Shown here piece by piece: positions 3,885 through 41,087 of a DNA stretch of 41,164 nucleotides; within the stretch, counting starts at the first letter, position 1, and the number at the start of each line of letters is the position of its first letter. Source of the DNA: a virus; IMG/VR virus record IMGVR_UViG_3300020401_000006, positions 1-41,164 of that record, one strand, 5' to 3'. The notes beneath the pieces were generated by a model that was not told the origin of the DNA, searched no databases, and worked only from the letters and a program-made list of their open reading frames with translations. Made by a program: the position numbers and the translations under genes.

Positions 3885-4187
3885 ATGTTAGTCACTCAGG
3901 CAACCGCTGCATCTATGCTTAACGTGTCGATACGCACGATCCAACGGTTACAACATGCCGGACAGCTACCGACAGTTCGTGTTGGTCGGTCCAACAGAAT
4001 ACCAGCAAAAGCTGTGGAGAATTATTTATGCCAAAAAACAGAAAGCCACCGCGTCTTGTTGAAAGGGATGGGATGCACTATGTCGCGTTCCACGACGGAC
4101 AAAGAGACAGACGAGTTAGCTTACGGACGTATGATAGCGAAATCGCGGTTACTAGGTTTCAAGGCTGGCTCGATGAATACAAATTGA
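3885..4187 (+). CDS. Excisionase-like HTH (MerR/HTH_17) protein
   Basis: 100 residues. Residues about 4-48 match the small winged HTH of excisionases and HTH_17 proteins: TAASMLNVSIRTIQRLQHAGQLP followed by a strand and VRVGRSNRIPAKAVENYL. The start lies two bases after the repressor stop. The last 160 bases overlap the integrase start in another frame, and the C-terminal 50 residues from that overlap look like no known domain. It probably bends DNA at attP to steer integrase toward excision; a purely regulatory role is possible. Confidence 0.7.
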   Translation: MLVTQATAASMLNVSIRTIQRLQHAGQLPTVRVGRSNRIPAKAVENYLCQKTESHRVLLKGMGCTMSRSTTDKETDELAYGRMIAKSRLLGFKAGSMNTN

Positions 4188-5101
4188 ACAAAGATGGTGA
4201 TCCTGATCCAAAAATATCAGATTGTTTAGATAAATGGTTTGATCAATGGATATCTGGCCGCATGGTTTCTGAGAACAGATACCCAAGCATTATAGGCCAT
4301 TTGCGTAAAGCGTTCGGGTCCATGAGGGTAAGTGAGGTCGAGAGGTCACACAGTAGAAAATATATAGCTGACAGGAAGACAGGAAAGTATGGGCGCTGTC
4401 CAGCAGCTGACGGCACTATACGTAAAGAATTGCAAGCTTTACGGGCCTCGTTAAATTTTATGTCAGAAAAGGTAGAGCCAGTATCACATAGGCTGCCAAA
4501 AGAAAAACTGCCTTATATCGAGTTACCGCCACCCAGTCCTCCGCGTGACAGAGTGCTAGACGAATTAGAAATAGACGCAATATTTAACTACGTTGACAAT
4601 TTAAAGGTAGATGGCCAGTTCCGCAGGGCAACCAATCGCTTGCCAAAACTTACTCGCTTTGTTTATCTGGCCCACTACACTTGGCAGCGCAAGTCAGCAA
4701 TATTGCAGCTGCGCTGGAGCCAGGTGAATAACCTGTATTCTAATCGCGCTACAATTAACTTTTTGCCAAGCGGCAGGCTACAAACTGCAAAACGCCGGCC
4801 ATTGCTGCCAATCGACGACAAGCTACTGACCGTGTTGCGTCGCGCTTTTGAAGAGCGCACAAACGATTTAGTTTGCGATACTAAAAGCGACATACACTAT
4901 GCAGTTAAGAAAATGGGCTTTGATTTAGACATTGACGGCTTATCACCACACGTTTGGCGCCATACTGGTGCGACTCATGCCGCTATGGACGGCGTTGCGA
5001 TGGATCAAATAGCTGCTTTCATGGGTGATACAGTGCAAACAGTAGAAAAAAACTACAAGCATCTGAGTCCAGAATACCTAAGAAACGTCATCAATAGATA
5101 A
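4028..5101 (+). CDS. int: Tyrosine recombinase, phage integrase
   Basis: 357 residues. The N-terminus (to about 60) is an arm-binding-like domain, about 60-150 a core-binding SAM-like domain, and 170-357 the catalytic domain. Catalytic positions are Arg221 (TWQRKS), Lys255, His308-x-x-Arg311 (HVWRH), Asp334 in MGDT where many integrases have His, and nucleophile Tyr343 (EKNYKH). The Asp variant of the fifth position is familiar in alphaproteobacterial phage integrases. It integrates and excises the genome at attP. Its start lies inside the excisionase-like gene, and a repeat-rich attP candidate follows directly. Confidence 0.95.
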   Translation: MPKNRKPPRLVERDGMHYVAFHDGQRDRRVSLRTYDSEIAVTRFQGWLDEYKLNKDGDPDPKISDCLDKWFDQWISGRMVSENRYPSIIGHLRKAFGSMRVSEVERSHSRKYIADRKTGKYGRCPAADGTIRKELQALRASLNFMSEKVEPVSHRLPKEKLPYIELPPPSPPRDRVLDELEIDAIFNYVDNLKVDGQFRRATNRLPKLTRFVYLAHYTWQRKSAILQLRWSQVNNLYSNRATINFLPSGRLQTAKRRPLLPIDDKLLTVLRRAFEERTNDLVCDTKSDIHYAVKKMGFDLDIDGLSPHVWRHTGATHAAMDGVAMDQIAAFMGDTVQTVEKNYKHLSPEYLRNVINR

Positions 5102-5334: not shown

Positions 5335-8300
5335 TTAAAAAATATCTGGGAAGCTTGACTTAGTTCTACCTTTGCCGCCCCTTACATACTTCTCGCCATA
5401 CACACCCTCAAGGAAAGCGTTGATTGCTTTGTTTCGGACTGTCGACGATGTAGCGTACTGTCCAATGCCAGTGGCAGCTAAAGCTGTCGCTGGGGTCAGA
5501 GGAAGATTTGCAATTGCAAGAGATACAGCAGGCGCAACCGACAGGTTCCATGCTCCGCGCAATGCCCGGTATTCAGAATATAGCGTGTTCGGGCTGTTGT
5601 TAATCCAAAATGAGGCAATATCTTGCATGTTCTGCGCGATGTAACCACCAGTGCCAAGCAGCCCGTTTGACAAATCACGCTGATATTTTAGGCCCGTTAT
5701 TGCTTGGACAATCGGGTCAAAAGCGCCTGTTGCGCCAGCACGGCTGAGTGCCAGCGGCAACAAATAATTTGTGAAAAATTTTAACTCATCCTCGTCTGAC
5801 TCATCCCATTCGCGATCCCAGCGCTCTTGATTGAGCAAAAACTCTCTAGCTGTCGAGACAAGAAAATGCGCAGTGAACAACGACAGCAGCGGCCCTGCAA
5901 CTGTAGATGTTGCATACAAAGCAGCACTGCCAGCTGCGCTTGCTTTGCCCTGCCCTGTTGTTCTGCTTATATCGTATTCTCTGGCTGTCCTTCTAACCAT
6001 AGCTTTCAACACCTTGTCCTGGAAGCTATAGACGAATGACATTATTCCGTAGACCAAACGTCCTATTGGATGCTCGGCATACATGGGTCTGTCTTGTGTG
6101 CGTGGGTCTTGTATCGACTGGTCGGTGAACCGCATCACTGAGACTGCCAGCTGCAACCCCATATCGTTAAACTCGCCGCTATCATCCATGACGTCTTCAG
6201 CTGTTGGCAGTTCTAACTTGCCATCAATCTTTGCTTTGCCTCTTGCATCAGCGCCTATTGCAAAATCACGCAACCTGTTTTTGCGTTTGACATCATTAAA
6301 ACTGAGAACATAATCAACGAATTGTTCCATACGACTGTCAGCTACACCTAAGTCATTGAGGACACGTTTAGCCTGCTCTTTTGCTTTAGGCGTAACTGGC
6401 TTTTTGTATTCGTAAGCCATTTCTGTAATGTATTGAAAACCTATCTTTGCAGCTGACCGTCGTTGCGCATTGGTCATGCCGGATAGTTTTATCTTGTGGA
6501 AGAAAGAAGACAACAGCTTATTAAGGTTTTGCTCTCCGGCAAAGTCACCGCCAATTCTATTTGCAATTATGTCGCCGACTTCCGGGTCGTCGATGACGCC
6601 CATAATACGAGCAAACTGCTGTCGCTGCCTTATGCCTTCTTTGGTCATTTTGCGCAGCCCCGGAAACTCCATCAGTGTCATTCCCCAGGCTCTTATTCCT
6701 TTTTTGACGCTGTTCGAGGCAAGCGCAACAGTAAACGGCTCCGCTATAGAAGCTATTGGAGCACGGATAAGCAGTGTCATAGACAGTAATGCAGTCAATC
6801 TGTTTGCTACTTTTTGCGGATTATTAGGAGCGTAGTTCTCTATGTTACGGCCCAGCATGTTGTTTATTGCGGATTCGAGCATAGCCAGTTCTGATTGCAG
6901 CAGCCTGTCCTGGCTGGCTAGTTTAGCCAGTGTGTAATGCAAATAATCTGTGTATTTATTATTAGGGTTTTCGCCTTTAGGTATGCGCTGCCTGCCAAAC
7001 CTTTTGTTATATTCTGCCTTGCGCACTGCGCCCATGATGTAAGTTGTAAGGTTTTCTATTGGGTCACTGACGTAGTATTTTTCAAGTATCTTGTCAGCTT
7101 CTGGCGGCAGCGCACGTTTCTTCGTAAAGTCTTGCGATGGCCCACCATTAGCAACAGGGTCGCCAACATGGCTTTCTTGTATGCTGGTTCGCCAATTAGC
7201 ACCTTTTATCTCAGAATATATATCAAGCATGTCATTGTAGAACTGCTCGTATATATCTTTCATACCCGCAAAAACGTCTTCTATTTCTGCTTCTATTTCG
7301 TCTTTGCGAGCATCTGTTGTGTTTTCGTTTCTAGCTTCGCGTCGTAGATCCTGTATTTGCTTAAACTCATCAGACCTTATGAAGTTTCTCCATTGATCCA
7401 TCTGCACAATGCCGAGTTTAGCTTCGCGTATAAAATTAATGAGCCTGTCCATTTGCTCGATGCTGTCAGTGTCCAGCTTGCCTACCTCGTTTTCAAACAC
7501 AACGCCGTAAACATCCTTTGCTGCTTTGCTAAACCCTTGTGGATCAGTGTTGATCTCTACATGATCTAGCAAACGCTGCACATAGCCACTGGGGGCGTAG
7601 CCTATGTCTAGTCCTGAGTTGCGGAGATATTCGTACAAAGTGTTATAAATTAGTCTGATTTCGCCAGCTGCTTTTGTTACCTTGTCTGGCGCTGATCCAA
7701 GTGTGTCCTGGCCAATCAATATATCGCGCAGCAGATCAATCTCTTCTTTTGTAAACCCAGGGATGTCATGCCTTACCGAGACATTTTTTAATCTGTCAGA
7801 GAATATTCTTACTTGCCGCATTTGTGCGTTTGTTAGATTGTCACCCTCTGCCATGCTTTGCAGGCTGCCACCTGTGTGTGTTGAAAGCAGCTGCATCAAT
7901 AGTTTGAGTCGTTTGCTTTTCGGGTATCTTTTTATCAGCGCTTTAAGGACGCCTTGTTTCTGGTAGAACAACGGCGCTGTAAAACCATCTTCTATAGTTT
8001 TACGACGACGAGCGTTCAAAACAGGGATTCTACCCTTTTCGTACTTATCGTATTCAGATGCTCGTTGTGCCATCCGCTCCATAAATTTTTTGCGATCTCT
8101 GAACGCTTTTATTTGGTCTTGTATTATTCCTTTCGACTCAGGCTCAGTAACATCGTGCATCCGACGTACATCGAATGTAAAATTATCGCCAGGCATTTTG
8201 CCCACCTGGCCTTCGCCTAGCGCAGTTTCAGCTGCTATTGCATACATCAGGTTTTGCATAGCGCCGAATATTTCCATGCGTTCTGCATCTTTTGGAAACG

Positions 8301-11300
8301 TAAGGGCAAGGCGTGAGTCCATAGCAATCGCAGCATTTGCAGGGTCTGTTAGTTCTGCTTCTGTAACGCCAAGCTGCTCGAGGGTCATCATGTAACCTTC
8401 TTGCGTTCCACCAAGAAAATCAGCGTTCAAGGCATCCAAAGCCATCTTGTTTGTTATGAAAGCCTCGCCAGTTCTTGCAAACATTTCTCGGGGTGACGCC
8501 CAATAGCTTGCGTCAGATCCAGCCATTTGCGCAAAAAACTCCGCGCTTGTTCTGAAGTTTGTTTTCTTGATGGCTGGACTTCTGCCTGTGCCTTCTAAAA
8601 TGCGTTTTCGTTGCTCGACAAGTGCCTTATACGACTTTGAGGCATAAACATCTTTGCCCCTCTTGCCTGCGTTAGCCTCCATCTTCGCCATATCTTGCTC
8701 AATCTTAGCAAGTTGCTGTGCTTCGGTGGCTTTGTCTTTGAACATTGCTCGGGATAGAGCAAGGTACGATTCAACGACACCGACGGGCGCATCATCCTTA
8801 AACGCATCTTTGCCTTCTTTCCTTGAAACATCGCTGGCTAACGGAAACTTGCCTGCGTTCTGACCAAACTTTTCATAAACATAGTGGTCGAGGGCATGGA
8901 ACCATTCGTGCGCAAAGCTGTTTACCCTGCGCGGAACAGCGATAGCCCTTTGTCCTGGGTAATAAACACCGTAAGCACCTATCTCTTTAGCCATAATAAA
9001 GCTAAGTGTGCCGTCTAGGCCAATCGCCTTGTATGGCAAGCCCAGTACATTAGCCATTGCAGATAGGTTATGATAGCCAGTCAGCAGCTGGTCCACAGCT
9101 TCTTTTGTGTTGGCGTTTTCGGTTTTAGTTATGCTTTTGAAGCCGAAACGGTCTTGTACCAGTGTCGACAAAATTCTGTACTGTCGTTCTATCGGTAGGC
9201 TTGTGGCCTCATTAGGATTTAGTCCGGCGTCTGCAAACGCCGTAAACATCAAAGCCGTTTTGTTTCTTTCTTTGATTTTGCTGACCCGCGTACCAGGTTT
9301 TGCAGTTCTCTGGTTGTCGATTTTAGATACTTCGACAACTCTGGTATCTGCTTCAGCAGCGGCTTGACCAGCTTCTTCGGTGGATATCTGTCCATCTATC
9401 TGCGCTTGCCCAGTTTCTTGGGTATCCGCTGTATCGACATCTCTAAGTCCTTCGCCACGGCCCGGGCCGCGCTGACGTTGTGTTTGTTTGCGGCCCGTTT
9501 GATTGCGGTCGCTAATGCCTGTCTCGGGGAGGAGGCTCCCTTGCCCTTGCGTACCATCTGCTTTACTCCTTGCCGCCTCTAAAACGTCTTGCGGTGTAGT
9601 GTTGTCTGTAAAAAACCCAGCGTCACGATCTTGTTTTTTCAACGCTTCTTCAGTGTAAAATTTCAAAACATCAGTTATAAATTTTTGCGACTTTGCTCGA
9701 GTTAGGTCTTCATTATACATTATCTTGACCAAGGCTTCAGCCTCGGGGGATATGGACGCAAGTTCACTGGTCTGATTAAGTACGTCGATTATCTTAGTGC
9801 TTGTTCTCCGTGCTTGGCTAACTATTTGTGCAGCTTCAGTTACAAATGCAGTGATATCATATTCTGGGGATATTAAGCCAGCATCTATATCTGCTTTCAA
9901 CTGCACAAAACTCGGAGCCGCTTCTAACATAGCGTTCCCAATGCCTTTTATGTTGTTTTCAGCGCTATCAAGCATCAATGACAATGTTTGTGTGTCCGTA
10001 TACGCGGCAGCTAGAATAGCTGACTGCATCCTCTGAACACCTTTTCTTGTAAGCATACCATTGCGAGTCATTTCGTTTTGTTCAGCTGGTGTGACCACTA
10101 AACGCATAAACTGACGAACAAAAGGTTGGTTTTCTGCTCTAGTAAAATCTCCACCTTTGTAAAGGTTGATAACCTCAACGCCCATTGCCCGTGCATCTCT
10201 TTGCGACGTTTCTGTATCGCTCATTGTTGCAATGGTGCTTCTGTTAGATTTATCGGCAAACTGGACAAGCTCTTGTCGTGTCATATCTTGGTCGATCATA
10301 AACACAAGCACAGGCTCTAAAAAATTTTGTTCAGTCTGGCCATATTCTTTCAGCGCTTGTTTATAGGCTTCCGCTTTTTCTGGAAACTGCTTGTAAGCCT
10401 CGCGGATAGACATGACCCGGCCATTGCCACTTATAACTGTGCCATCCCGGGCAATAATTGGCGCGCCGCTTTCTGACGTAGGACTGTTTAACAGCATGTC
10501 AGGGGCTAGGTTTGCCGCACGGCGCTGCACCTCAACTTGAGATTCTCGCAAGCTTCTGTCCCTCGGCTGCAAGTCACCAGTTGCTGATTTAAGTTCAGAT
10601 TGGTCTACAAGAACTGGCCTTACTTTTATTTGTATATCGCCATCTGGCGTTCTTATTGTTTTCTGGCCCTTCTGCCCTCTTTCTTTTAAAAACGTAATAG
10701 GCAGCGCCAGGGCTTCCTCAGTGGGGGCTTGTGGGTTTTCTTGTTCAGGTTCCGGCTGCGCAACAGGCTCCGGCGCTGGTTGCGTTACAGGCTGTGTAAC
10801 AGGTTGTGGCGCTGGTTGCGTTACAGGCTGCGTTACAGGCTCTGGTGCAGGCTGCGGCGCCGCACCTCCAAAAGCTTCTACAAATTCTTTTTCTACTTCC
10901 GCCAGTTTTTCCGGCTTAAAGTTCTCATGCCCATTATCTCTTGCGTATCTTTGCGACCTTAGTTCGTGATAGACGCCAGCAAGATTGACAATTTGCGATT
11001 TTAGATCACGGGCTTCTTGCGTTGAGTTACTAGGATTTAACGCTTGTCCTACTTCAAAGCCCATGTCGTTAAGCTGTTTGTTTAGCCTGTTTAGAACATC
11101 TAAAGCTCTTTGTGTTTCTTCAGTAGATATTGTACCAGCTTGTGCAGCACGGGTTTGCCTGCCTTCTAGAGGTTTCAATATTTGAGAAACGTCGGTTGCT
11201 GGGGTGTTCGGTGTCGATGGCGCTCTGCCTTCTCTTGCCTCTTTTGTTGTCTGCGCTTGCTGCAACTGGATTCTGGCAAAAACAAGCGCATCTTGTATGC

Positions 11301-13068
11301 TTTCTGTAGGTATTGTATTTAGCCTTGCTGCTATATCTATATTTAAGCCTTCATCTTCGGCTATTTTTTGCAAGGCAAGTATCTCGGCTGCATAAGCTTG
11401 ACCATCTGCGGTTGCGTAAAACTCTTCTAGCTCCCTTGCTTGCGCTGTCAGCGTTCTGGCTTTTTCCCTCTGTTCTGTCGCATAATTTTCTGCGTCGGCA
11501 CGTAACTCATCGTTTCTTGTTGCATCCAAATCAACAGGCCGTCCTTCAGCAGCTGCTAATCGCCTGTCTGTTTCTTGCGCTAGCCTGGTTGCTTGCTCTG
11601 CTCTTGTGCGCAGCCTCGTAAGTTGCTCAGTTGTTTTTTCGTTTACGTTGGTTGCCGCTGCTTGTGTTTGTGCTTGAAATTCTATGTCAGAGAAAAAATT
11701 ACTTTCTGCTTCTGGGTCAACAAAACCAAACTCAGCACTGTTTGGATTGAGCATGTCGCGCACAATCTTTTGCGCCAGAAGCGAGTCAAACTCAGATGCC
11801 TCCTGATCTTTTGGAAACCTATTAGCGATAGCAGATGCGGTTTCTTTGCCTGCTGAAGTTGCGGCGCTGACCTGAGTACCGACTGCTGCGCCAGTAAGAA
11901 ATGACTCACGCAGCCTAGACTTTATTTCACCTTCTTTAAATTCTTTGCCAGCTATAGCCTCAAGGCCGATTCCAATACTATCTTGCCCCGTTTCTGTTAT
12001 GCCTTCAGTAGCCATACTAGTAGCAACAGCAGAAGCAACCCTTGTGCCGTAATTTTTGTTGACCCAGTTTACAAAATACTGGCCGCCCAACTTGCCAATC
12101 AATTCATCTGGCAGACCTTTGATCAAAATACCAAGGCCCAGGTTTTCCAACACAGCCGCAACAGTGCCGCCGCTTGCTGCTAATGCAACGCGGTCTGCTT
12201 GAGACAGTCCTTCGATTTCTTTAAGGTTTGCGTTAAACTCACCACCAAGCAACAACGGAGACATCCATCCGCCAGAAGCTATAGCGACAATCATAGGCTC
12301 ACCGCTAGCCGCCAGTGATGTTTGCGCCCAATCGAGAAAATCTCCAAAGTTCTTTATTTTGTCTGTGGTGAGCGGACGATAGCCTAGCGCCTCTGCCTGC
12401 TTCATCAAACGCTCAGATGAGTTTCTTGCTCGTTCAGCAAAAGCCCTGCTTTCACGTAGGTTTGCATCTTCTGGCAGCGGCTCGGCGCCAAAAAACTTAC
12501 GGACAGGGTTTATCAGAGGTTGGCGCAGAAAGTTTTGTGTCTTCTGCATCCATTGAGACATTGCAGTGTCGCGTAGCGTTTCTTCGATATCAGCAGCAAA
12601 GCCCTGTGTGTTTGCCCGTGTGTTTAGCTGACCAAACCTAAATGCTGTTCCCATATCTCTTGTAAATCGTGGGTTGCCCTCGAGGTCGATGCCGAGGTCG
12701 GCCTTTAGCTGTGTTGGCCCAGGCTGTTCCATCGCTGCATCAATGATCTGCTGTCGTGGGTCCGGCGGCTGGTTAAACACGCTAGGTGGTGGTGCAGCTG
12801 GCTGTGGATCAGCCGCAATCGGCTGGATCATACCAGCGTCTAACTCATCTCCGAAATCATAAGAAGGTGTCCCCGGCAGCGCCGCCGCATCCAGCTGGGG
12901 ATCGCTTTCGTCGGACAGTGCAACTGGAGTAGGTTGCACGGCAGCCGCCGGGGACGCTGTTTGCTCGTCAAGTTCTTTGAAAGCGTCGAGCATTGAATAA
13001 CCAACAGGTCCAGATTGCTGTGGGCTTACATCGTCTGGCTCTTGCAAAAAATCAAGCATTGACTTCAT
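5335..13068 (-). CDS. Giant polyvalent virion protein with ParB-like and metallopeptidase-like domains
   Basis: 2,577 residues, almost a fifth of the genome. Order: disordered Pro/Ala-rich N-terminus; Gly/Ala-rich amphipathic region (about 245-390); long coiled coil (about 480-620); Pro-Gln-Val repeats (about 737-780); DdrB/ParB-like domain with the GNGR motif near 880; LPD1-like domain with a zincin motif HEWFH at about 1386-1390; long helical region; and an LPD38-like C-terminus with hydrophobic segments near 2085-2125, 2375-2410 and 2510-2550. Polyvalent proteins are thought to be injected with phage DNA and to act against host defences. Position as last gene after the internal virion proteins suggests packaging in the capsid and ejection. 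No lysozyme or transglycosylase motif is obvious. Confidence 0.85.
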   Translation of the reverse strand: MKSMLDFLQEPDDVSPQQSGPVGYSMLDAFKELDEQTASPAAAVQPTPVALSDESDPQLDAAALPGTPSYDFGDELDAGMIQPIAADPQPAAPPPSVFNQPPDPRQQIIDAAMEQPGPTQLKADLGIDLEGNPRFTRDMGTAFRFGQLNTRANTQGFAADIEETLRDTAMSQWMQKTQNFLRQPLINPVRKFFGAEPLPEDANLRESRAFAERARNSSERLMKQAEALGYRPLTTDKIKNFGDFLDWAQTSLAASGEPMIVAIASGGWMSPLLLGGEFNANLKEIEGLSQADRVALAASGGTVAAVLENLGLGILIKGLPDELIGKLGGQYFVNWVNKNYGTRVASAVATSMATEGITETGQDSIGIGLEAIAGKEFKEGEIKSRLRESFLTGAAVGTQVSAATSAGKETASAIANRFPKDQEASEFDSLLAQKIVRDMLNPNSAEFGFVDPEAESNFFSDIEFQAQTQAAATNVNEKTTEQLTRLRTRAEQATRLAQETDRRLAAAEGRPVDLDATRNDELRADAENYATEQREKARTLTAQARELEEFYATADGQAYAAEILALQKIAEDEGLNIDIAARLNTIPTESIQDALVFARIQLQQAQTTKEAREGRAPSTPNTPATDVSQILKPLEGRQTRAAQAGTISTEETQRALDVLNRLNKQLNDMGFEVGQALNPSNSTQEARDLKSQIVNLAGVYHELRSQRYARDNGHENFKPEKLAEVEKEFVEAFGGAAPQPAPEPVTQPVTQPAPQPVTQPVTQPAPEPVAQPEPEQENPQAPTEEALALPITFLKERGQKGQKTIRTPDGDIQIKVRPVLVDQSELKSATGDLQPRDRSLRESQVEVQRRAANLAPDMLLNSPTSESGAPIIARDGTVISGNGRVMSIREAYKQFPEKAEAYKQALKEYGQTEQNFLEPVLVFMIDQDMTRQELVQFADKSNRSTIATMSDTETSQRDARAMGVEVINLYKGGDFTRAENQPFVRQFMRLVVTPAEQNEMTRNGMLTRKGVQRMQSAILAAAYTDTQTLSLMLDSAENNIKGIGNAMLEAAPSFVQLKADIDAGLISPEYDITAFVTEAAQIVSQARRTSTKIIDVLNQTSELASISPEAEALVKIMYNEDLTRAKSQKFITDVLKFYTEEALKKQDRDAGFFTDNTTPQDVLEAARSKADGTQGQGSLLPETGISDRNQTGRKQTQRQRGPGRGEGLRDVDTADTQETGQAQIDGQISTEEAGQAAAEADTRVVEVSKIDNQRTAKPGTRVSKIKERNKTALMFTAFADAGLNPNEATSLPIERQYRILSTLVQDRFGFKSITKTENANTKEAVDQLLTGYHNLSAMANVLGLPYKAIGLDGTLSFIMAKEIGAYGVYYPGQRAIAVPRRVNSFAHEWFHALDHYVYEKFGQNAGKFPLASDVSRKEGKDAFKDDAPVGVVESYLALSRAMFKDKATEAQQLAKIEQDMAKMEANAGKRGKDVYASKSYKALVEQRKRILEGTGRSPAIKKTNFRTSAEFFAQMAGSDASYWASPREMFARTGEAFITNKMALDALNADFLGGTQEGYMMTLEQLGVTEAELTDPANAAIAMDSRLALTFPKDAERMEIFGAMQNLMYAIAAETALGEGQVGKMPGDNFTFDVRRMHDVTEPESKGIIQDQIKAFRDRKKFMERMAQRASEYDKYEKGRIPVLNARRRKTIEDGFTAPLFYQKQGVLKALIKRYPKSKRLKLLMQLLSTHTGGSLQSMAEGDNLTNAQMRQVRIFSDRLKNVSVRHDIPGFTKEEIDLLRDILIGQDTLGSAPDKVTKAAGEIRLIYNTLYEYLRNSGLDIGYAPSGYVQRLLDHVEINTDPQGFSKAAKDVYGVVFENEVGKLDTDSIEQMDRLINFIREAKLGIVQMDQWRNFIRSDEFKQIQDLRREARNENTTDARKDEIEAEIEDVFAGMKDIYEQFYNDMLDIYSEIKGANWRTSIQESHVGDPVANGGPSQDFTKKRALPPEADKILEKYYVSDPIENLTTYIMGAVRKAEYNKRFGRQRIPKGENPNNKYTDYLHYTLAKLASQDRLLQSELAMLESAINNMLGRNIENYAPNNPQKVANRLTALLSMTLLIRAPIASIAEPFTVALASNSVKKGIRAWGMTLMEFPGLRKMTKEGIRQRQQFARIMGVIDDPEVGDIIANRIGGDFAGEQNLNKLLSSFFHKIKLSGMTNAQRRSAAKIGFQYITEMAYEYKKPVTPKAKEQAKRVLNDLGVADSRMEQFVDYVLSFNDVKRKNRLRDFAIGADARGKAKIDGKLELPTAEDVMDDSGEFNDMGLQLAVSVMRFTDQSIQDPRTQDRPMYAEHPIGRLVYGIMSFVYSFQDKVLKAMVRRTAREYDISRTTGQGKASAAGSAALYATSTVAGPLLSLFTAHFLVSTAREFLLNQERWDREWDESDEDELKFFTNYLLPLALSRAGATGAFDPIVQAITGLKYQRDLSNGLLGTGGYIAQNMQDIASFWINNSPNTLYSEYRALRGAWNLSVAPAVSLAIANLPLTPATALAATGIGQYATSSTVRNKAINAFLEGVYGEKYVRGGKGRTKSSFPDIF

Positions 13069-13074
13069 GTTTTG

Positions 13075-14658
13075 CTACCTCACAACATTTGCAACGATTG
13101 CATCAATCTCAGGTGTTTGGTAGCCAAGTTGCGTTAGAAACATTCTTGCAGCTTGTTGTCTGCTGCCAAGAGGGCGTGGCTTTACGTTGCCTTGTGCATC
13201 AGTGATAAATTTTATTTGTTTGTTGTAATTTGCGTCATCCGTTTCGCCAATTATTTGCTGTATTAGGAAAACAGGAATTCTGACTGTATCGTTGCCGACC
13301 AGAGGCAAGCCTGTGTTAGTTCCAAGAGTGCCTGTGTTTGGCACAACAATTTCTTGGTATCCTTTGCGCAGCTGTGCGCTTATGTGCGCAGTTCCTTTAG
13401 CCATATTTTTCTTATTGCCCATAACTGAAGGAGATGCTGCCTGATTTACCAGTAGTAAGATAACCCCGTCAGGAATGTTAGTTATTTTTGCTTTTTGGGC
13501 TGCCTTTGCCGCCACTTCTGTTAGTTGTTTGTTATCGCTTGCTGCTATTGTGAAGCCGCTGCCACTGCCGCTTGTAGTCTTAAAGCCTGCGCCCGGAAGG
13601 ACATATTGGCCTTTGTCATTTACTGGTATGTTTAGCGCTTTTGCGGTTGCCTCATCCATGAAGACATCTTCCTTGCCCACCTTCACAACTACATCGCCAG
13701 GTTTCTTGCCGCCATCGAGAATATGCAATCCGTTGAACTCGCTGTTAGGATCATTAATAGGTGAAACGCCAATCCTTTCAGCTGTCTCTGGATCAAGAAT
13801 AATCATCTTGCCAGGTGTCACGTTGATTTCCACTGGCTTGTTGTCAATTTTATATCGAGCGGTAGCATCAGCTGCTTCATTTTTGTCACGGTCAACTTTA
13901 GCTTTTGCATTTGTTTTATATTTTTCCCACCTCTCCCGTCTTGCATTTTCATCCATACCGACATCTCTAGTGTTTCGGTTTTTCTCCTGGCCAAGTACCA
14001 TTTTTGTGGCTTCTTGCGCTTGTGTATCTCTGTCGCCTTGGCCGCCAGGACCAATCTTCATGTCTTGTTCACGCCGCGCTGTTGCATCGTCAGTCTGCAA
14101 CTCAGTCATTGCAAAGTCAGGGTTGTTGTACTTATTACCGCCCTTCAACATCAACGCTCCGCGTTGGGCCTGGTCAGGGGAGCCGCTCAGTATCATGCTT
14201 TGGGCAAGGCGCGATTGACCGCTTTCTGCTAGATTGCCCAGCATTTGCGATAGTTGATTTGCATTAGACGTACCATCGCCATACATAGAACGAGCCAGCG
14301 CCCCAAGTTGATTGGCAACATCTTCTTGGCTCATTTGGTTTTGGTTTGGTAACAACGGAACTGATTGTTGGGGTCCGCCAGGAAGCGGTCGACGTATCAA
14401 GTTGCCGTTGTCCAGCTGGCCCCCGAAAACATTTGCGACTTGGTTTTGCAAAAGGGGTGTAAGTGCAGCTATGTTTTGCGCATCAAGTTGTTCTTCCAAA
14501 CCTCGGCTTTGCAGCTGTTGGGCTTTGGTTTGTTCGTCGTAATACCTTGCTCTTGCGCTTGCTGCATCGTCGCTTGGTGAGCCTATGAGCGCCCTTGTAA
14601 GATTGGAGACAGTACGCGAAATGGCAGGGTCCATTGCAAAATAGTTTTGTGTTGCCAT
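13075..14658 (-). CDS. Probable internal virion protein
   Basis: 527 residues, not assigned to a named family. It is Gln/Asn/Ala-rich and largely helical, with a charged coiled-coil stretch near 210-270 and a more compact C-terminal half. There is no signal peptide or membrane segment. It follows a GGAG ribosome site and lies between small Cys-start virion proteins and the giant polyvalent protein, the slot occupied in T7-like phages by the ejected core proteins. I infer that it forms part of the internal core or ejection conduit. Confidence 0.6.
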   Translation of the reverse strand: MATQNYFAMDPAISRTVSNLTRALIGSPSDDAASARARYYDEQTKAQQLQSRGLEEQLDAQNIAALTPLLQNQVANVFGGQLDNGNLIRRPLPGGPQQSVPLLPNQNQMSQEDVANQLGALARSMYGDGTSNANQLSQMLGNLAESGQSRLAQSMILSGSPDQAQRGALMLKGGNKYNNPDFAMTELQTDDATARREQDMKIGPGGQGDRDTQAQEATKMVLGQEKNRNTRDVGMDENARRERWEKYKTNAKAKVDRDKNEAADATARYKIDNKPVEINVTPGKMIILDPETAERIGVSPINDPNSEFNGLHILDGGKKPGDVVVKVGKEDVFMDEATAKALNIPVNDKGQYVLPGAGFKTTSGSGSGFTIAASDNKQLTEVAAKAAQKAKITNIPDGVILLLVNQAASPSVMGNKKNMAKGTAHISAQLRKGYQEIVVPNTGTLGTNTGLPLVGNDTVRIPVFLIQQIIGETDDANYNKQIKFITDAQGNVKPRPLGSRQQAARMFLTQLGYQTPEIDAIVANVVR

Positions 14659-14672: not shown

Positions 14673-15263
14673 CTATTTAGGCTTTGCAAGCCCGTAATTT
14701 GTTGCCACTTGGCCGCCACCAATAAGCAACTGTGCCAGAGGATCACGGGCTAACTCATTTGCTGCCTGCAATTCACCTTGCAAAGCGCCGCTACTACCTC
14801 TCATAAAGTTGCCCAGCATTTGTGTTTCCGCAGCTGAACTGCTAAGTGCTGGATTGATCTGATTAGCCAAAATACTGCCAAAAGCATTTAAATTAGCCAG
14901 TGCTTCATTTTGTTGTGCATTAAAGTCAGCCGCACCCTGCATCGCAGCTGCCTGCGCATCTCTTACTATTTGTGGGGCAGAGCCAGTAATAGCGGGAGCC
15001 ATGCCTGTGTTTTTCATGCCATCGAAAATTGCTGCAAGCCTTGTCGCTTCATCAGACATAGCCGGGTCAAAGTTTTTTCTGTCCAACATGCCGCGACTTG
15101 TGTCTTGTGCGCCCTGTGCCTCTTTATAAAAACCTTCTTGTCTTTGGCCCTCTCGCCCTATAGCGCCTGTCCTAGCTCTTGAGGCTTTTTTAGCGGCTTG
15201 TTGTTGTCTGTAAATGCCTGCGCCTTGCGCAATCGCACCTAACGCTAATGCTGGATTACACAT
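14673..15263 (-). CDS. Small internal virion protein (gp14-like position)
   Basis: 196 residues starting MCNPALALG. Short Ala/Gly/Gln-rich helical proteins beginning Met-Cys with a hydrophobic N-terminal helix occupy the gp14-like internal core slot in many marine podophages. Helices near residues 5-20 and 160-190 are amphipathic. It shares one base (TAATG) with the upstream gene. It probably helps form the ejection pore; the assignment rests on composition and position rather than a diagnostic motif. Confidence 0.55.
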   Translation of the reverse strand: MCNPALALGAIAQGAGIYRQQQAAKKASRARTGAIGREGQRQEGFYKEAQGAQDTSRGMLDRKNFDPAMSDEATRLAAIFDGMKNTGMAPAITGSAPQIVRDAQAAAMQGAADFNAQQNEALANLNAFGSILANQINPALSSSAAETQMLGNFMRGSSGALQGELQAANELARDPLAQLLIGGGQVATNYGLAKPK

Positions 15264-16096
15264 TATCCTATCACCCTTATGCTGGAGCCTGAGAACGGAG
15301 ACTGTACGCCTCTAGTTGAAAAACGACTTGGTTGGGCCAACGCTGTTCCTAAATCTGATGGCCCTGCTGTGTTAACTGGCATGACATTCGCTTGTGTGCC
15401 TGGACCTACCTTTTCAAATCCCTCAAAAAACGTCATATCGTCTTTTTTGCCAGGAGTTTTAAGCTTTTCAAGTTGCGACCCAAAATCAAAATCTTGTATC
15501 GCTTTTGTTTGCTTATCGATCTCTGCAACAGTTGACGCACCGCCAGCAAGGCCACTTAACTGATCGCCCAGTGATTTTTGTTTTTTTGCAACATCGTCTT
15601 TTTTAAGTTGTGAATAGGCGGCAGCCGCTTTGTCAATTTTGTTTTGCTCGACTGACTTTTGTGCGTCTAACGCAGATAACGCCGCATCAACCTCGCCTTG
15701 TGTCAAAAGACCCCTTTGCTTAAATCCCTGATAGATGCCGCGTACAGAATCGTCGTAGGCTGATTGCAGTCCAGTAGATGCAGCGTCCCTAAAAGCAGCC
15801 TCTAAATCTGCATAGTACTCATCGTTAAAACCGCCAAAAGCGTTTGCTAAAGCTTGTTGCTGGGCTTGTAAGGCTGATGCCCTGCCTGCCCGAGCATTTG
15901 CCAAATCCTGTTTTAATCTTTCAGCAGCCTCTAACGCAGCCCTCATTTCGCTTTGTCCGTCATCCTCGCTGGCTGTCGCTAGCTCGAACGCCATGTTAGA
16001 GGAGCCAGGATATCCACGGTTTGCATTAGTGTCGTCACCGGGAGTAGGTGTGTAATCACCCATAGATGAGAAAAAGTCTTGAAGCGTGAATCCCAT
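15263..16096 (-). CDS. Probable internal virion protein, coiled coil
   Basis: 277 residues, not recognised. A disordered N-terminus (YTPTPGDDTNANRGYPG) precedes a long Ala/Gln/Lys-rich coiled coil at about 50-200, with a Gly/Ser-rich C-terminus. It sits between two Met-Cys virion proteins with one-base TAATG junctions on both sides, so it is probably made with them as a structural component inside the head. Confidence 0.55.
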   Translation of the reverse strand: MGFTLQDFFSSMGDYTPTPGDDTNANRGYPGSSNMAFELATASEDDGQSEMRAALEAAERLKQDLANARAGRASALQAQQQALANAFGGFNDEYYADLEAAFRDAASTGLQSAYDDSVRGIYQGFKQRGLLTQGEVDAALSALDAQKSVEQNKIDKAAAAYSQLKKDDVAKKQKSLGDQLSGLAGGASTVAEIDKQTKAIQDFDFGSQLEKLKTPGKKDDMTFFEGFEKVGPGTQANVMPVNTAGPSDLGTALAQPSRFSTRGVQSPFSGSSIRVIG

Positions 16097-16695
16097 TATT
16101 CTACCACCTTAGATGCCTTGCTTGTTGAAAAAAGCCCTGTGTCGTATCGATTTCGGCCACGCCGTTCTAAGTCTGCTTGTGTTGCAATGCCTGCTGTTAC
16201 ACCTTCAAAAAGCGCAAGCAATGGGTTGTAATTAGGCATTTGTGTAAGTGTTGTGGCCCTGTTCATGGCGTTCTGCGCAATCATCGCTGGGTCTGCAAGG
16301 TTTTGGTTTTGTGAGTATAAGTCGCTCTTAGCAGATTCGACAGAAGACCTAGCTCTGTTTTCAAAGTCCAGGGCTTTGTTGGCAATAGCTCTAGCGTTTG
16401 TGTCATATTGTTTTTGCAAATCGCCAAAACGCCGCGCTCTAGCAGAAGAATTTTGTAATCCGCTTCTTGTTAGCGCGAGCAATAGATCACGGCTTGCGTC
16501 CTTAAACTGATCTTCTAGCTGCGGGCTTGCATAATCTATATAGGACTGACGACGGGCATCATAAAAAGGCTGATCAAACTGCGCGAATGTTTCGTCGATT
16601 TTGTCGCGCCCTTCTCTCACACGTTGCTGACGCAACTCTTCCTGTCTTCTTTGCTCTGCTGCGCCGCCATCACCGACGCCACCACCGAAACACAT
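16096..16695 (-). CDS. Internal virion protein starting MCFGGG
   Basis: 199 residues. The N-terminus Met-Cys-Phe-Gly-Gly-Gly is a recurrent start of virion proteins in marine podophages. The rest is helical and rich in Arg/Gln/Ala (residues 10-150), with no catalytic motif. The Cys2 might be used for disulphide or lipid attachment, but there is no signal peptide, so a lipoprotein is unlikely. Position after the gp13-like gene and before two similar proteins supports a role in the internal core. Confidence 0.6.
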   Translation of the reverse strand: MCFGGGVGDGGAAEQRRQEELRQQRVREGRDKIDETFAQFDQPFYDARRQSYIDYASPQLEDQFKDASRDLLLALTRSGLQNSSARARRFGDLQKQYDTNARAIANKALDFENRARSSVESAKSDLYSQNQNLADPAMIAQNAMNRATTLTQMPNYNPLLALFEGVTAGIATQADLERRGRNRYDTGLFSTSKASKVVE

Positions 16696-16704: not shown

Positions 16705-17226
16705 CTATTCGTTAATTACGATTTTTCTTGCTTGCCATTTTGCGTTTCCCTCGTTTTTTCTTACCCACGCAAAATTTATGAAATTCTCTCCATTTCTGCC
16801 ATATCCATGAAGCATAGATTCTGGTTTTAATCCTAGAAAGCCAAGCCATTCATGCACCTCTTCGTAACCCACTATTGATTGAGCCTCTACTCGATGAGTT
16901 CCAATCTTTTGTAACATCGGTATTATAACTTTTATTACATGCTTTGTCAGCGGCCTGCCTATAATTTCTATTTTGTTGGTCGCAAAAAGCCCCACATTCC
17001 ACACGCCAGGTCGCATCGATGTAAGTGTTAAACAAGCTATACGTCCTTCTTCTTTCGTTCCAAAAACATAAGTCGCTGGTGATTGTGACCATGTTTTTGC
17101 TATGTAATCACATAATTCGTATCTGTCTTCTGCATGTGTCGTGCATATTATTTCTTGGTAATCACGTTCTCGCATCCTTTGTGCAACATCATAAATATCC
17201 CCAATAGTTGCATGTCCATATATCAT
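16705..17226 (-). CDS. T7 gp13-like (DUF2833/GNAT-fold) virion protein
   Basis: The ATG at 17226 (MIYGHATIGD) gives 173 residues and a four-base ATGA overlap with the nozzle stop; a longer frame to 17292 adds 22 residues inside the nozzle gene and is less likely. The body has the alternating helix/strand pattern of acetyltransferase-like DUF2833 proteins: DVAQRMRERDYQEI at the start, then strands with ATYVFG, GRIACLTLT and VEAQSIVGYEEVHEWLGFLGLKPE, the last resembling the C-terminal part of a GNAT fold. T7 gp13 is an assembly protein of this family. Catalytic activity is not implied. Confidence 0.7.
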   Translation of the reverse strand: MIYGHATIGDIYDVAQRMRERDYQEIICTTHAEDRYELCDYIAKTWSQSPATYVFGTKEEGRIACLTLTSMRPGVWNVGLFATNKIEIIGRPLTKHVIKVIIPMLQKIGTHRVEAQSIVGYEEVHEWLGFLGLKPESMLHGYGRNGENFINFAWVRKNEGNAKWQARKIVINE

Positions 17227-19301
17227 CCAGCCTCCGTAGCATTGTAATGGATAGCTATGTTCCCTATTTTTGCTGGCCCAGGCTGGGAACAAGAAAGTTT
17301 TGGCGCTATGTGTGTGGAATAACCAGTCATAGTAACGCGACCTAGCCCATAAGTTGTTCTGTGAACTGTAGCAACAGGCTCGAGCGTCGTGATGTCTTGT
17401 GGGTCAGTGGCAACGCTAATGTCCCATTGGTTTTGACAAGTAACATCCAAGCCATGAAAGTCTTTAAATGTTGCTGCTTGTCCAGCATCTAGAAATGGCA
17501 TTTGCACCTCGACAGCAGAAGAGTCGTAAGTGTTGCCATCGGCGCCGCCCAGGCTGAAAAGACTATCGCCAGCCCTGCATAGTATTTGCTTGCCGTCGTA
17601 TGCCCAGTTATCGACCGTAAAACCAGGTTCATACAGTGACCATGCACTTACTCTGCTTGACGGAAAATAGCTAAACACAAAAATTTGCGAGCCTATTGCT
17701 AAAAAATACCGCCCATCACGCGGCTCGAGTATTGCCTGACTGCGCTCGCAAGCAAGCCTATTCGATGTGATTTCTGCGGCAAGCAATTCGTCAATCGGGT
17801 TTCCGATGTCGCCAACAAACGCGGCATTTGATGAATCCCTTGCTCTGAGACTTCTAATGCCCGAAAGAGACAGATAGAAAACATCGTTATCTCCAAACTC
17901 AACCACAGAATTAGGCGCAATCGTGCCAGTATTTACAACTACCTGTATTTGCTGATTAAGGTCTTCGTCTGCGTCAACAAACCAAATCTGCACAGCCTGT
18001 TCAGCAAAAACAGCAATGTTGTCAAAATAGTTAGCTATAGCCTTTAGGTCTTCAGATCCTGTCGCATTGTTTGCAAGGTTTATAAAACCCGCACCCAACG
18101 AGCCGTCATTCCATTCATCTGGCTGACTGACTGCGCTAAAATGCAGTAAAGAGTCAGACAGTGCATACATCTTGTTTTTGACTGGACGAACAAAACCGCC
18201 GGGTGTGTAGCCATTTATCGCATTACTTGTGGCCCCGCCGTCCATAAAGTTTTGACTAGTTGGGCTAAAAACTGTTGTTACATTGCCTGCCACCGAAACA
18301 ACAACAGCCTGGTTGTTTGGTGTAGCACCGGGGTCGTCTGCAATTATGTTTACAAAATCGTTAAAAGCCGTCGCTTCAAAGTTAGGCGCTGACGTGAAAT
18401 CATTTATTGCCGCTGCAAGCGCAGTTGCGGTTGCGGTATTGCTTGTTGCCCACTTTACTTGGCTTTGCAGTATAGAAACGCCATTTACCGTAATATCTGT
18501 TATTGCGTTGTCGACGCCGCCAGACATGTTGTTTATAGACGAAACACCGAAACCGCCTTGGGTTGTTACAGCTACTACAAATCCATTTGATCCTATTCCA
18601 ACATCGACGGCTGTAATAGTGACTACATCGTTATTTGCAGAAGCTGAATAGTTTGGCGATGAGGTAAAATTATTTATAGCGTTTGCAACATTTGTGGCCG
18701 TTGTTGCGTTATTGCCAGTGTGTGCAATCGGACTCGCGGAGTCATTTATCTCCACGCCGTTTACACGAACAACACGAATATCGTCGCCAGGATTCGCAGT
18801 GCCAGCGCTAACTGTAAATGACCCTGTTGCAGCTGTGCCGCCTTGCGTTCCAGCAGTAATCTGTATTTTTGCTCTCGCACGACCGTCGAACCAGTCTGTT
18901 ATTCTTACGCCATCATAGTAGTGGAATATACGTCCGTCAGAAAACTCAGCAGCTGCATAGACTCTACCATCAAAGAAATCTACAGAAAGCACCTTAGTTA
19001 AGGCATTGCCAGATGGATGCTGCAATCGAACGTAATTGATATTAGACGGTGTGCCTGCTGCAAAATTTACTGATGATGCCGCATCTGATCCAAAGACATA
19101 TATCTGCCCACCAGCAGCTGCTAGCCCGAATGTATTTGTAGGTAGCGTTGCAAGCGAAACAAAAGCTTGTCGCTTTTCTATTTCACCACCTCGCGTTATG
19201 TGTGCATTTTTGAGCGTAACAAGAGTGCCAGGATTAGCCGTTACATCAAGCCTTCTGGTGTCTAATCCACCTCTAAAATCATCAACCAAAATATAAGGCA
19301 T
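17223..19301 (-). CDS. Tail nozzle (tail tubular B-like) protein
   Basis: 692 residues. The start, LVDDFRGGLDTRRLDVTANPGTL, is typical of the beta-propeller nozzle proteins of short-tailed phages, and the second half repeats propeller-like blades (for example DNIAVFAEQAVQIWF, DVFYLSLSGIRSL, SQIFVFSYFPSSRVSAWSLYEPG). Two similar beta domains of roughly 90-100 residues are inserted at 161-262 and 268-356. It should form the distal tube through which DNA leaves. It lies directly after the adaptor gene (four-base gap). Confidence 0.78.
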   Translation of the reverse strand: MPYILVDDFRGGLDTRRLDVTANPGTLVTLKNAHITRGGEIEKRQAFVSLATLPTNTFGLAAAGGQIYVFGSDAASSVNFAAGTPSNINYVRLQHPSGNALTKVLSVDFFDGRVYAAAEFSDGRIFHYYDGVRITDWFDGRARAKIQITAGTQGGTAATGSFTVSAGTANPGDDIRVVRVNGVEINDSASPIAHTGNNATTATNVANAINNFTSSPNYSASANNDVVTITAVDVGIGSNGFVVAVTTQGGFGVSSINNMSGGVDNAITDITVNGVSILQSQVKWATSNTATATALAAAINDFTSAPNFEATAFNDFVNIIADDPGATPNNQAVVVSVAGNVTTVFSPTSQNFMDGGATSNAINGYTPGGFVRPVKNKMYALSDSLLHFSAVSQPDEWNDGSLGAGFINLANNATGSEDLKAIANYFDNIAVFAEQAVQIWFVDADEDLNQQIQVVVNTGTIAPNSVVEFGDNDVFYLSLSGIRSLRARDSSNAAFVGDIGNPIDELLAAEITSNRLACERSQAILEPRDGRYFLAIGSQIFVFSYFPSSRVSAWSLYEPGFTVDNWAYDGKQILCRAGDSLFSLGGADGNTYDSSAVEVQMPFLDAGQAATFKDFHGLDVTCQNQWDISVATDPQDITTLEPVATVHRTTYGLGRVTMTGYSTHIAPKLSCSQPGPAKIGNIAIHYNATEAG
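18234..18821 (-). repeat. Duplicated beta-domain coding repeat in the nozzle gene
   Basis: Codes for residues about 161-356. Both halves share the pattern VNGV-x-I, a run of Asn/Ala/Thr, AxAIN-x-FTS-x-PN, AxxND-x-V-x-I, and end in M-x-GG or MDGG. The copies have diverged, so the duplication is old. Confidence 0.65.
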
Positions 19302-19304
19302 AAG

Positions 19305-20018
19305 CTACACCTCAGACAGAATGATTGGCCTCGAGCCTTTACCGCCATACCCACTTTCCGGCATACCTCCGCCTATTACAAAGCTGTCTGTTTTGGACAA
19401 TCTCGCTTTCAGACGTGCATAATGGGCTTGCGCTTGTGCCAGTTTGTTTTGTGCATCTGCCTGTTTTTGACGGGCCAAAACCTCGCCAGCTGCATACAAA
19501 ACAATCAGTTGGTCGTCTAAATCAGCTAAATCCGCTTCGGCAACAAACGCACTTAGGTTTTTTATGCCGTGTATGCGGATAGCGCCATCACCGTCGGCAG
19601 AATTTGTGTTCTTATTAGGTATAGGCCAAAATTCTATTTGATTGTTTTCGTAGGCAGCATATTTCTCGATAGGATGACTTGTAATGTTTCTATCGCTGTC
19701 ATGTTGGTTGTATTCGTGCCTGCCTATGCCGTAGCCCAGTTTATCCCAAGTGTGGCCGTTTTTGTACTCAACAACCTCTACACGCTCAAACACCATATCT
19801 GCTGGCAAGTCATAGTATCGTTGACCTGTGTTGATAGTTATGTCTCGCCTTACACGCAGAAACGGCCAGGAATAATCATCCCACAACCTTCTTTGTGTAC
19901 GTTGCAAAGTGTTAATTAGCACATCCCTTGTGCTCTTGCCCAAGCTTGGCTGCAATGAATGACCCACCTCCGAGCGCAAGTCCTCGATAAGCTGGCCCAG
20001 CGACGTGCCTCTTGCCAT
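19305..20018 (-). CDS. Head-to-tail adaptor (tail tubular A-like)
   Basis: 237 residues. The N-terminal half has the helical adaptor pattern LGQLIEDLRSEVG...TLQRTQRRLWDDYSWPFLRVRRDI, with WPFLRV close to the motif in gp11/gp4-like tail adaptors. The middle is beta-rich (YYDLPADMVFERVEVVEY), and the end is a helix with a Gly-rich tail. It should form the ring joining portal and nozzle. It is placed between the small coat-downstream protein and the nozzle, as in T7-like clusters. Confidence 0.8.
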   Translation of the reverse strand: MARGTSLGQLIEDLRSEVGHSLQPSLGKSTRDVLINTLQRTQRRLWDDYSWPFLRVRRDITINTGQRYYDLPADMVFERVEVVEYKNGHTWDKLGYGIGRHEYNQHDSDRNITSHPIEKYAAYENNQIEFWPIPNKNTNSADGDGAIRIHGIKNLSAFVAEADLADLDDQLIVLYAAGEVLARQKQADAQNKLAQAQAHYARLKARLSKTDSFVIGGGMPESGYGGKGSRPIILSEV

Positions 20019-26164: not shown

Positions 26165-26609
26165 AAATTTCCCAATGAGGCCCGTCTAGAAACGGTCGCC
26201 TGTCTTCTGCCCTGCGAATATCTATGTATTCATTCATCATTTGCTCACATGTGCCGTTAAACTCGCGGCAGTCAGATATATGCCACGCACAACCCCAGCG
26301 CAGTGGCACGTCAACTTCTTTTGCTGCGCTAATCATCGCATCGCCAATATCATCGTAAAGATTTAGCTCCCAGCTGGCCCTGTTGCCGATGTAGGCCATC
26401 AGATCAACAGCTTTGCCCTCTAAATGCTTGGATTTCATTGTTTTGCTTGCGCCCTTTTCGACCAGAGCTTGTTGCTCTTCCGTTGTTCGCAAACCGCATA
26501 TCACTCCAAAGTCTACTTTGGTGCGCTGTATCGCCAATGTAACCGTAAGAATTAGGCGCTCGTCTACACCGTTTAGCTTGGATAGGCTGCTGCCGGATAA
26601 CGTAAACAT
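26157..26609 (-). CDS. Endolysin, M15 peptidase
   Basis: 150 residues. Zinc-site residues of M15 peptidases are present: His62 and Asp69 in SKHLEGKAVDL, and His145 in DGPHWEI. ICGLRTTEEQ near residue 40 matches the usual G-x-R-T motif. Such enzymes (L-Ala-D-Glu or D-Ala-D-Ala peptidases) cut peptidoglycan stem peptides. There is no signal peptide, so release depends on the holin encoded just upstream, whose stop shares one base with this start. Confidence 0.9.
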   Translation of the reverse strand: MFTLSGSSLSKLNGVDERLILTVTLAIQRTKVDFGVICGLRTTEEQQALVEKGASKTMKSKHLEGKAVDLMAYIGNRASWELNLYDDIGDAMISAAKEVDVPLRWGCAWHISDCREFNGTCEQMMNEYIDIRRAEDRRPFLDGPHWEIYE

Positions 26610-26968
26610 TATTTTTTACCCTTTATGCTTTCAGCAAGGCCACCGCCAAAATAAAACGAAACGATAACCAGCATTATTTCGCCAATCCAGAAATCACCTA
26701 ATATTGATTTCACGCCATCGATGTCGCCCTTCCCCGCAAGCGTCATTCCCAGTGTAATTGCAAAACAAAGCAAGAAAGTGAACGCAAACATAAGGGCAAG
26801 ATACCTCTGGGCCAGTTTGAACGGTTGGTACGCCGTCAATAAGTCTGTTTTAGCTTTGCTAGCAGCAGCAATCTCTTCCTCTGTAGAGGTGTGCATCGAG
26901 TCAATTAACTGCATCCCCTGCTTAACAACATCACCAGAACCCAATATTTTAGACAGTATTCCGATCAT
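26609..26968 (-). CDS. Holin, GTA/3TM-type
   Basis: 119 residues from the ATG at 26968, which overlaps the upstream stop as ATGA and follows GAGGAG. Two clear hydrophobic helices, YLALMFAFTFLLCFAITLGM and FWIGEIMLVIVSFYFGGG, follow an amphipathic N-terminal region; the C-terminus is basic (SIKGKK). The layout resembles the 3TM holins linked to gene transfer agents and alphaproteobacterial phages. With the endolysin immediately downstream it should form the lysis pair. Confidence 0.8.
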   Translation of the reverse strand: MIGILSKILGSGDVVKQGMQLIDSMHTSTEEEIAAASKAKTDLLTAYQPFKLAQRYLALMFAFTFLLCFAITLGMTLAGKGDIDGVKSILGDFWIGEIMLVIVSFYFGGGLAESIKGKK

Positions 26969-27180
26969 AAACACTCCTCTTTAGCGACACATGCGGGGTA
27001 ACATTGTATCAAAAATTTGTAATATTCGTTGTTATTGTGATGATCCCACATGTTTTCATCTGCTAGCTGCTGACACTGAATTTCATTAAAAGTGTGTCTC
27101 ATTACTGATTGATTACCTATAAAAAGCCATTCTGACCCTGTGTTTCCCCACATGCTAATAACAAGCACAAATTCTTTCAT
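26965..27180 (-). CDS. Small conserved phage protein
   Basis: 71 residues from the ATG at 27180, in a four-base ATGA overlap with the EF-hand membrane gene; a frame from 27195 adds five residues inside that gene. FVLVISMWGNTGSEWLFIGNQ is followed by a Cys/His-containing helix, with Cys at the start and end of the compact part (IQCQQLAD, IQCYPACVAKEECL) that could pair. Similar short proteins occur in lysis regions of marine phages; function unknown. Confidence 0.6.
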   Translation of the reverse strand: MKEFVLVISMWGNTGSEWLFIGNQSVMRHTFNEIQCQQLADENMWDHHNNNEYYKFLIQCYPACVAKEECL

Positions 27181-41062: not shown

Positions 41063-41087
41063 TGTGCCAGACCGCCCTCCCAAGCAG

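Follow-up and report, generated by a model that had tools for sequence, protein, structure and literature searches.

The giant gene of the window—the window being the whole stretch of 41,164 nucleotides analyzed here—probably encodes a gp16-class ejection protein (internal virion protein D) of a T7/LUZ24-type podovirus, which is enlarged by a payload, delivered, and released from this payload by a built-in zincin. It is read as a gp16-type ejection protein with a ParB domain and a zincin in place of the transglycosylase because of the homology of its C-terminal chassis, the virion proteins among its relatives, and the lack of a lytic transglycosylase (SLT) domain. The open reading frame occupies 5335–13068 on the minus strand, starts with an ATG at 13068, and codes for 2577 amino acids. 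It takes up 7734 of the 41,164 bases, i.e., 18.8% of the record, in agreement with the first-pass annotation, which had described a single gene of almost one-fifth of the genome and left its strand unstated. The plus strand across the same interval is packed with stop codons. Homologues are found in more than 70 contigs, and the gene is real, far beyond chance.

The gene closes a cluster of internal virion protein genes, as had been proposed from the first reading of the sequence. The order on the minus strand is terL, portal, a scaffold-like gene, capsid, tail tube A- and B-like genes, and a GNAT-like internal virion protein, followed on the same strand by proteins of 199, 277, 196, and 527 amino acids and, finally, the giant:

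17223–20018, minus strand: tail tube B-like gene (17223–19301) and tail tube A-like gene (19305–20018), by synteny with phage Mae-Yong1326-1
16705–17292, minus strand: GNAT-like internal virion protein in the position of T7 gp13 (phrog_308 "internal virion protein," 4e-6)
16096–16695, minus strand: candidate internal virion protein of 199 amino acids (synteny, 52 loci)
15263–16096, minus strand: candidate internal virion protein of 277 amino acids (synteny, 15 loci)
14673–15263, minus strand: candidate internal virion protein of 196 amino acids with the position and size of T7 gp14 (synteny, 51 loci)
13075–14658, minus strand: candidate internal virion protein of 527 amino acids in the position of T7 gp15 (synteny, 27 loci)
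5335–13068, minus strand: giant gene (open reading frame and homologues)

Related contigs were searched with the phage's own genes, and the order ending in the giant is kept in about 50 loci among those reaching far enough, including contigs from alphaproteobacterial genomes and one Vibrio contig. Prophage-like loci occur in contigs from Devosia, Sphingopyxis, Siculibacillus, and Novosphingobium genomes. The giant shares with the gp16 class its place as the last gene of a gp13-14-15-16-like cluster. The likeness of its neighbors to T7 gp14 and gp15 is one of position, as a simple HMM gave no match; the 527-residue protein has no Pfam match. The counterparts of both tail tube genes in Mae-Yong1326-1 are annotated as tail tubular or packaged-DNA stabilization proteins. 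Since Pfam identifies an integrase gene at 4028–5101, downstream of the giant, the phage is probably temperate. A separate lysis cassette at 26157–26974, immediately upstream of terL, comprises an M15 endolysin and a small membrane protein resembling a holin, and a Prim-Pol plus AAA protein of 753 amino acids at 38888–41149 is the probable replication protein of the phage.

The giant is composed of the following parts, listed from the N terminus to the C terminus:

11719–12501, minus strand: Gly/Ala-rich helical N-terminal module, residues ~190–450 (74–100% identity per 50-residue window to the closest relative)
10693–10860, minus strand: Pro/Gln/Val repeat linker preceding the ParB domain, residues 737–792, seen in the sequence
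10303–10632, minus strand: DdrB-like ParB domain, residues 813–922 (Pfam and ParB fold)
9388–10302, minus strand: conserved helices extending the DdrB module, residues 923–1227 (phrog_5143 match over 830–1227)
9298–9543, minus strand: disordered linker at the edge of the exchanged cassette, residues 1176–1257 (pLDDT <50; identity profile)
8230–9261, minus strand: predicted zincin metallopeptidase, residues 1270–1613 (fold matches; partial CLCA_X match)
8896–8910, minus strand: HEWFH zinc motif, residues 1387–1391
8230–8514, minus strand: LPD1 (Pfam), residues 1519–1613, the probable C-terminal half of the zincin
5338–8148, minus strand: gp16-like ejection chassis, residues 1641–2577 (model and T7 gp16 profile)
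6742–6798, minus strand: sole strong transmembrane-like segment, residues 2091–2109 (hydropathy)

As judged by sequence profiles and a structural model, the chassis is homologous to the C-terminal part of T7 gp16 (gp16-C). Residues 1641–2577 are modeled as a single all-helical unit with a pLDDT of 84.9 and a pTM of 0.82. Profile–profile comparison with the T7 gp16 family, represented by 60 rows, aligns 387 columns with a score of 62 (P 5.6e-6), and reversed as well as 15 column-shuffled control profiles reach at most 27.5. The register of this alignment is similar to that of the structural one. The top PDB match of the chassis model in Foldseek is the T7 core protein (E 0.01). In VIA-align, four gp16-type chains from three phages top the PDB ranking—T7 9jyy_I with Z 7.6 over 279 residues (model 59–691 on gp16 509–1209), PhiM1 8vb2_A with 7.3, E1004 9vvp_L with 6.8, and T7 7eyb_I with 6.0, the next unrelated row having Z 5.3—by values that lie below the caution line for helical proteins and are weak taken alone, and the likeness is clear only in the middle of the chassis. 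Many of the BFVD matches are labeled "internal virion protein D" or "internal core," and the family HMM detects KPP25 ORF088 (5.6e-44) and LUZ24 gp50 (5.5e-27), each of which bears a virion protein annotation; a direct sequence search of the PDB yields nothing credible. The LPD38-like hydrophobic C terminus of the first-pass annotation is not supported, the C terminus being T7 gp16-like instead: Pfam LPD38 gives no match in the giant and its relatives, in a search in which no positive control rang, and only one transmembrane-like segment is present.

The homology of the C-terminal third with T7 gp16 and with the virion proteins of LUZ24 and KPP25 lends indirect support to delivery of the giant along with the DNA, more than the letters alone could give. 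Alternatively, the giant could be an undelivered structural protein of the virion, serving as core scaffold or in DNA packing, with the ParB domain as a mere assembly aid like P1 DdrB, which "Aids DarB addition to capsid" (PMC9024508). The annotation of homologues as just virion structural proteins would agree with this. We consider it improbable, as the gp16-class proteins of T7 are ejected (PMC8954989) and the exchange of payloads described below resembles a counter-defense cassette rather than an assembly part.

The DdrB-like ParB domain is recognized by PF18763 with 101.1 bits against a cut-off of 27.6 (E 5.9e-29). The DNA-acting-like domain with a GNGR motif near residue 880, which had been noticed from the letters alone, corresponds to this domain, GNGR being residues 881–884. 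An AlphaFold model of residues 800–1640, built on 61 sequences, has a pLDDT of 85.8 and matches ParB N-terminal domains with Z 9.1 (rmsd 2.4 over 91 residues) and sulfiredoxin with Z 6. Both folds on which the earlier proposal depended, ParB and zincin, are matched by Pfam and AlphaFold models, so that the proposal is not refuted on this point. Traits of DdrB-type ParB domains are the active-site Arg, the residue ending strand 2, and a Tyr in the extra helix (Iyer 2017, PMC5512222). R836, R838, and R884 are invariant in 39 sequences; D822 terminates strand 2 in the giant, with Asp or Glu at that site across the family; and Y902 in helix 896–909 is present in 39/39. The helical extension that follows is modeled with a pLDDT mostly above 90 as far as residue ~1170. 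With ddrB-ParB, zincin, and LPD1, the giant combines several unrelated effector or LPD domains with a metallopeptidase (MPTase), which characterizes polyvalent proteins (Iyer 2017, PMC5512222). DNA protection may be ascribed to the giant by analogy with P1 DdrB only, which is tied to EcoB/EcoK restriction phenotypes in one account (PMC12810830); a counter-restriction role of the DdrB-like payload is, by the same analogy, plausible and not specific.

The zincin motif HEWFH, earlier placed near residue 1386, is located at 1387–1391 within a zincin fold in the AlphaFold model and is invariant in 61 sequences. Known zincin catalytic domains are matched with Z values of 10.3 (213 residues, rmsd 7.8) and 10.2 (191 residues, rmsd 5.0), and the MtfA-like 3dl1 with a Z of 7.9 (165 residues, rmsd 4.3). 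The toxin among these matches indicates likeness of fold only, and nothing points to an animal toxin. NCBIfam CLCA_X partly covers 1304–1414 with 8.2e-15, well under its cut-off. With HExxH inside a zincin fold, the giant carries, as modeled, a zincin-like metallopeptidase for which proteolysis is predicted. The main scan for loci made use of NSFAHEW, and conservation was re-tested with C-terminal patterns alone, avoiding the zincin sequence: HEWxHxxD is intact in 46/46 relatives found in this way (32 clusters at 90%). The peptidase motif is, hence, retained whatever the payload.

Gluzincins have their third zinc ligand on a helix that follows the HExxH helix toward the C terminus. E1528 occupies such a helix in the giant and, together with Y1522, A1531, R1532, and E1535, is invariant in 61/61 sequences inside the zincin fold match. 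We tentatively propose E1528, rather than E1535, as the third zinc ligand. These residues belong to LPD1 (PF18796, 36.2 bits against a cut-off of 27), which was listed in 2017 among domains of elusive function and which, by alignment and fold match, is probably the third-ligand half of the zincin.

Zincin and chassis are constant among the relatives, and the payload in front of them varies. The ParB domain is present in 39 of 57 full-length proteins, with at least 7–8 changes of presence on the chassis tree. The closest relative (L001) shares with the giant 94% identity in the zincin, 93% in the chassis, and 50% in the ParB domain. Along the sequence, identity is mostly 84–100% over residues 1–450, which for this relative lie on another contig from its metagenome, 16–23% at 601–750, and ~42–69% over 751–1250, climbs to 94% at residue ~1251, and stays at 84% or more per 50-residue window from 1251 to the end. 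Hence, the center of the giant looks like a cassette that has been exchanged while the flanks on both sides stayed nearly the same. A milder case is the pair L009/L011 (chassis end 98%, zincin 93%, ParB 71%), and in other close pairs the ParB domain is no less similar than the rest of the protein. One relative carries an ART-PolyVal payload. Two giants without ParB domain have a DnaN/β-clamp-like stretch in the payload position: residues ~1132–1307 in L044 (open reading frame 5750–13633) and ~1257–1340 in L078 (4931–13648), with the letters DIRYYLNG...VTDGHRLA...GKFPD. Their scores are low (1.3e-4 and 8e-4) and their identity is uncertain, as a RusA-like PHROG matches nearly the same stretch with 1.8e-13. 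In L029 (5546–13714), residues 1196–1270 between ParB domain and zincin resemble a C5-cytosine methyltransferase by PC and ENPVGR motifs, a weak, motif-level likeness with an E-value of just 0.006.

The N-terminal Gly/Ala-rich module may interact with membranes if the N terminus of LUZ24 gp50 is a guide; an iterative profile built on the module strayed into the chassis and was set aside. The linker behind the ParB module opens with QGSLL (residues 1176–1180, 9529–9543). This QG-x-L-L/F motif resembles a clamp-binding peptide and occurs in ~16/50 relatives—too patchy a presence for interpretation as a sliding-clamp peptide.

The first-pass annotation saw no lytic transglycosylase, and this holds: none is found in the whole record by an SLT search in which control genomes are positive. 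SLT is likewise missing from the giants in 19 further phage records of the family, the T7 gp16 control being positive, and the sole SLT across these records is a separate open reading frame of 271 amino acids. Pfam detects no SLT in 41 N-terminal halves and 52 neighboring internal proteins, among the latter of which a lone M15 peptidase is found in an internal virion protein of one relative. As SLT is absent from the record, the giant is, by sequence, a variant of the gp16 class and not of the T7 type. The zincin could then be the wall opener that replaces the T7 transglycosylase by cutting peptide cross-links at entry, with ParB as a separate cytoplasmic factor; its invariance across the family and its position N-terminal to gp16-C, where SLT resides in T7, fit with such a role as does the missing SLT itself. 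This is nevertheless unlikely. The top fold matches belong to zincins that cut proteins and to an MtfA-like hydrolase rather than to wall peptidases, and M15 peptidases are already at hand, in the endolysin for lysis and in the internal virion protein of the one relative. Moreover, LUZ24 gp50 has neither SLT nor the family zincin and P22 gp16 is reported without a hydrolase domain (PMC8954989), so that no wall enzyme is required on the giant. Since P22-type phages manage without a transglycosylase as well (PMC8954989), its absence from a gp16-like protein is not mysterious by itself, and the "unknown route" through the wall suggested earlier is not supported.

The favored reading, an ejected protein with a releasable payload, would proceed as follows. 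The giant would sit in the head, above the portal, until its ejection along with the DNA. Its gp16-like part would lodge in the inner membrane or cytoplasm—T7 gp16-C is modeled in the host cytoplasm and binds DNA, and gp16-N holds the transglycosylase (PMC8954989). The zincin at the junction of chassis and payload would cut the linker and set the ParB module free in the cytoplasm, where it could act on incoming DNA or on defense proteins. The N-terminal part of T7 gp16 remains periplasmic (PMC8954989); by analogy, the payload could end up on the wrong side unless released or unless the topology differs. Release by the zincin is favored because the zincin abuts the chassis and a long linker joins the payload: across the relatives, the zincin always directly precedes the chassis with a median gap of 22 residues, and the linker between payload and zincin has a median of 152 and up to 547 residues and is disordered in the model of the giant. 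Processing by such MPTases was proposed by Iyer et al. (PMC5512222). Self-processing would be a candidate mechanism, which we infer like injection and antirestriction: no cleavage-site motif is found in the giant, and N4 vRNAP, with a zincin in the corresponding place, is a counter-example in that it is reportedly packaged uncleaved (PMC5512222, PMC12633501). The uncleaved N4 vRNAP would also suit a zincin that cuts a host protein, e.g., of defense or envelope, after delivery of a giant that remains whole. Retention of an intact peptidase alongside many different payloads agrees with this option, which we regard as doubtful because the fixed place between payload linker and chassis fits processing better.

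In a broader and more tentative reading, podoviruses would own a general platform for protein delivery, in which a gp16-type chassis and a built-in zincin release swappable N-terminal payloads with the DNA—ParB, ADP-ribosyltransferase, methyltransferase-like, and clamp-like modules—as cassettes exchanged among phages that hardly differ elsewhere. Polyvalent giants of the virion are already known (Iyer 2017, PMC5512222; JC1 gp69, PMC9144972). Within the part of the literature covered, three points appear new: a polyvalent class riding on a gp16 ejection core, payload exchange over a constant zincin–chassis unit, and the completion of a zincin by LPD1. They join two fields that have been pursued separately: polyvalent conflict proteins, which lack an explanation for their delivery, and ejection proteins of the T7 type, with their poorly understood inner-membrane gp16. 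If true, polyvalent proteins would gain a concrete entry mechanism; Pfam LPD1 a function as half of a zincin; and the chassis–payload boundaries would be natural and testable. With an exchangeable DNA-acting module and a metallopeptidase where T7 has a wall-cutting enzyme, the giant suggests itself as a vehicle for bringing proteins into bacteria.

T7 gp16 and its counterparts in PhiM1 and E1004 feature a C-terminal helical core homologous to that of the giant. T7 gp16 is likewise large, of low hydropathy, and the last gene of its ejection cluster. However, it has 1318 amino acids and an N-terminal lytic transglycosylase, whereas in the giant ParB domain and zincin precede the core and ~1250 more residues are present in all.

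LUZ24 gp50 and KPP25 ORF088 have the chassis in common with the giant and show no match to the family ParB or zincin profiles. LUZ24 gp50 consists, at 1055 amino acids, of the N-terminal region—Gly/Ala-rich as in the giant—and the chassis only.

P1 DdrB belongs to a myophage, unlike the giant of a podovirus. It shares the DdrB-ParB domain with ~30% identity over residues 832–1113 and, as in the giant, an MPTase domain C-terminal to it (Iyer 2017, PMC5512222). It is a head protein with a reported role in DarB loading (PMC9024508) and, with 108.7 kDa, seems too short for a gp16-like chassis.

Microcystis phage Mae-Yong1326-1 (L004, OP028995) has the same gene order, and its ORF38 aligns with the giant over zincin and chassis at 29% but has no ParB domain. 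ORF38 is annotated as peptidoglycan transglycosylase, and SLT is not detected in it. A flexible tail of 340 nm is reported for this phage (PMC9503304), yet its tail tube and internal virion genes are of the podovirus type, several with best matches in Alphaproteobacteria.

The DarB-like giants of Bcep22, JC1, and BcepIL02 likewise occupy about one-fifth of the genome and close the same gene order: GNAT, small, ~500-residue protein, and giant. JC1 gp69 with 4515 amino acids was detected in virions by MS (PMC9144972). BcepIL02 gp70 matches none of the family ParB, zincin, and chassis profiles and is not taken as a homologue.

N4 virion RNA polymerase gp50 is, like the giant, a large ejected protein encoded by the last gene of its cluster. 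The parallel is architectural, as no profile match to the C1–C2 part is found: a payload, an HExxH subdomain, and a large helical C-terminal part follow each other as in the giant (PMC12633501)—the payload being an RNA polymerase instead of a ParB domain.
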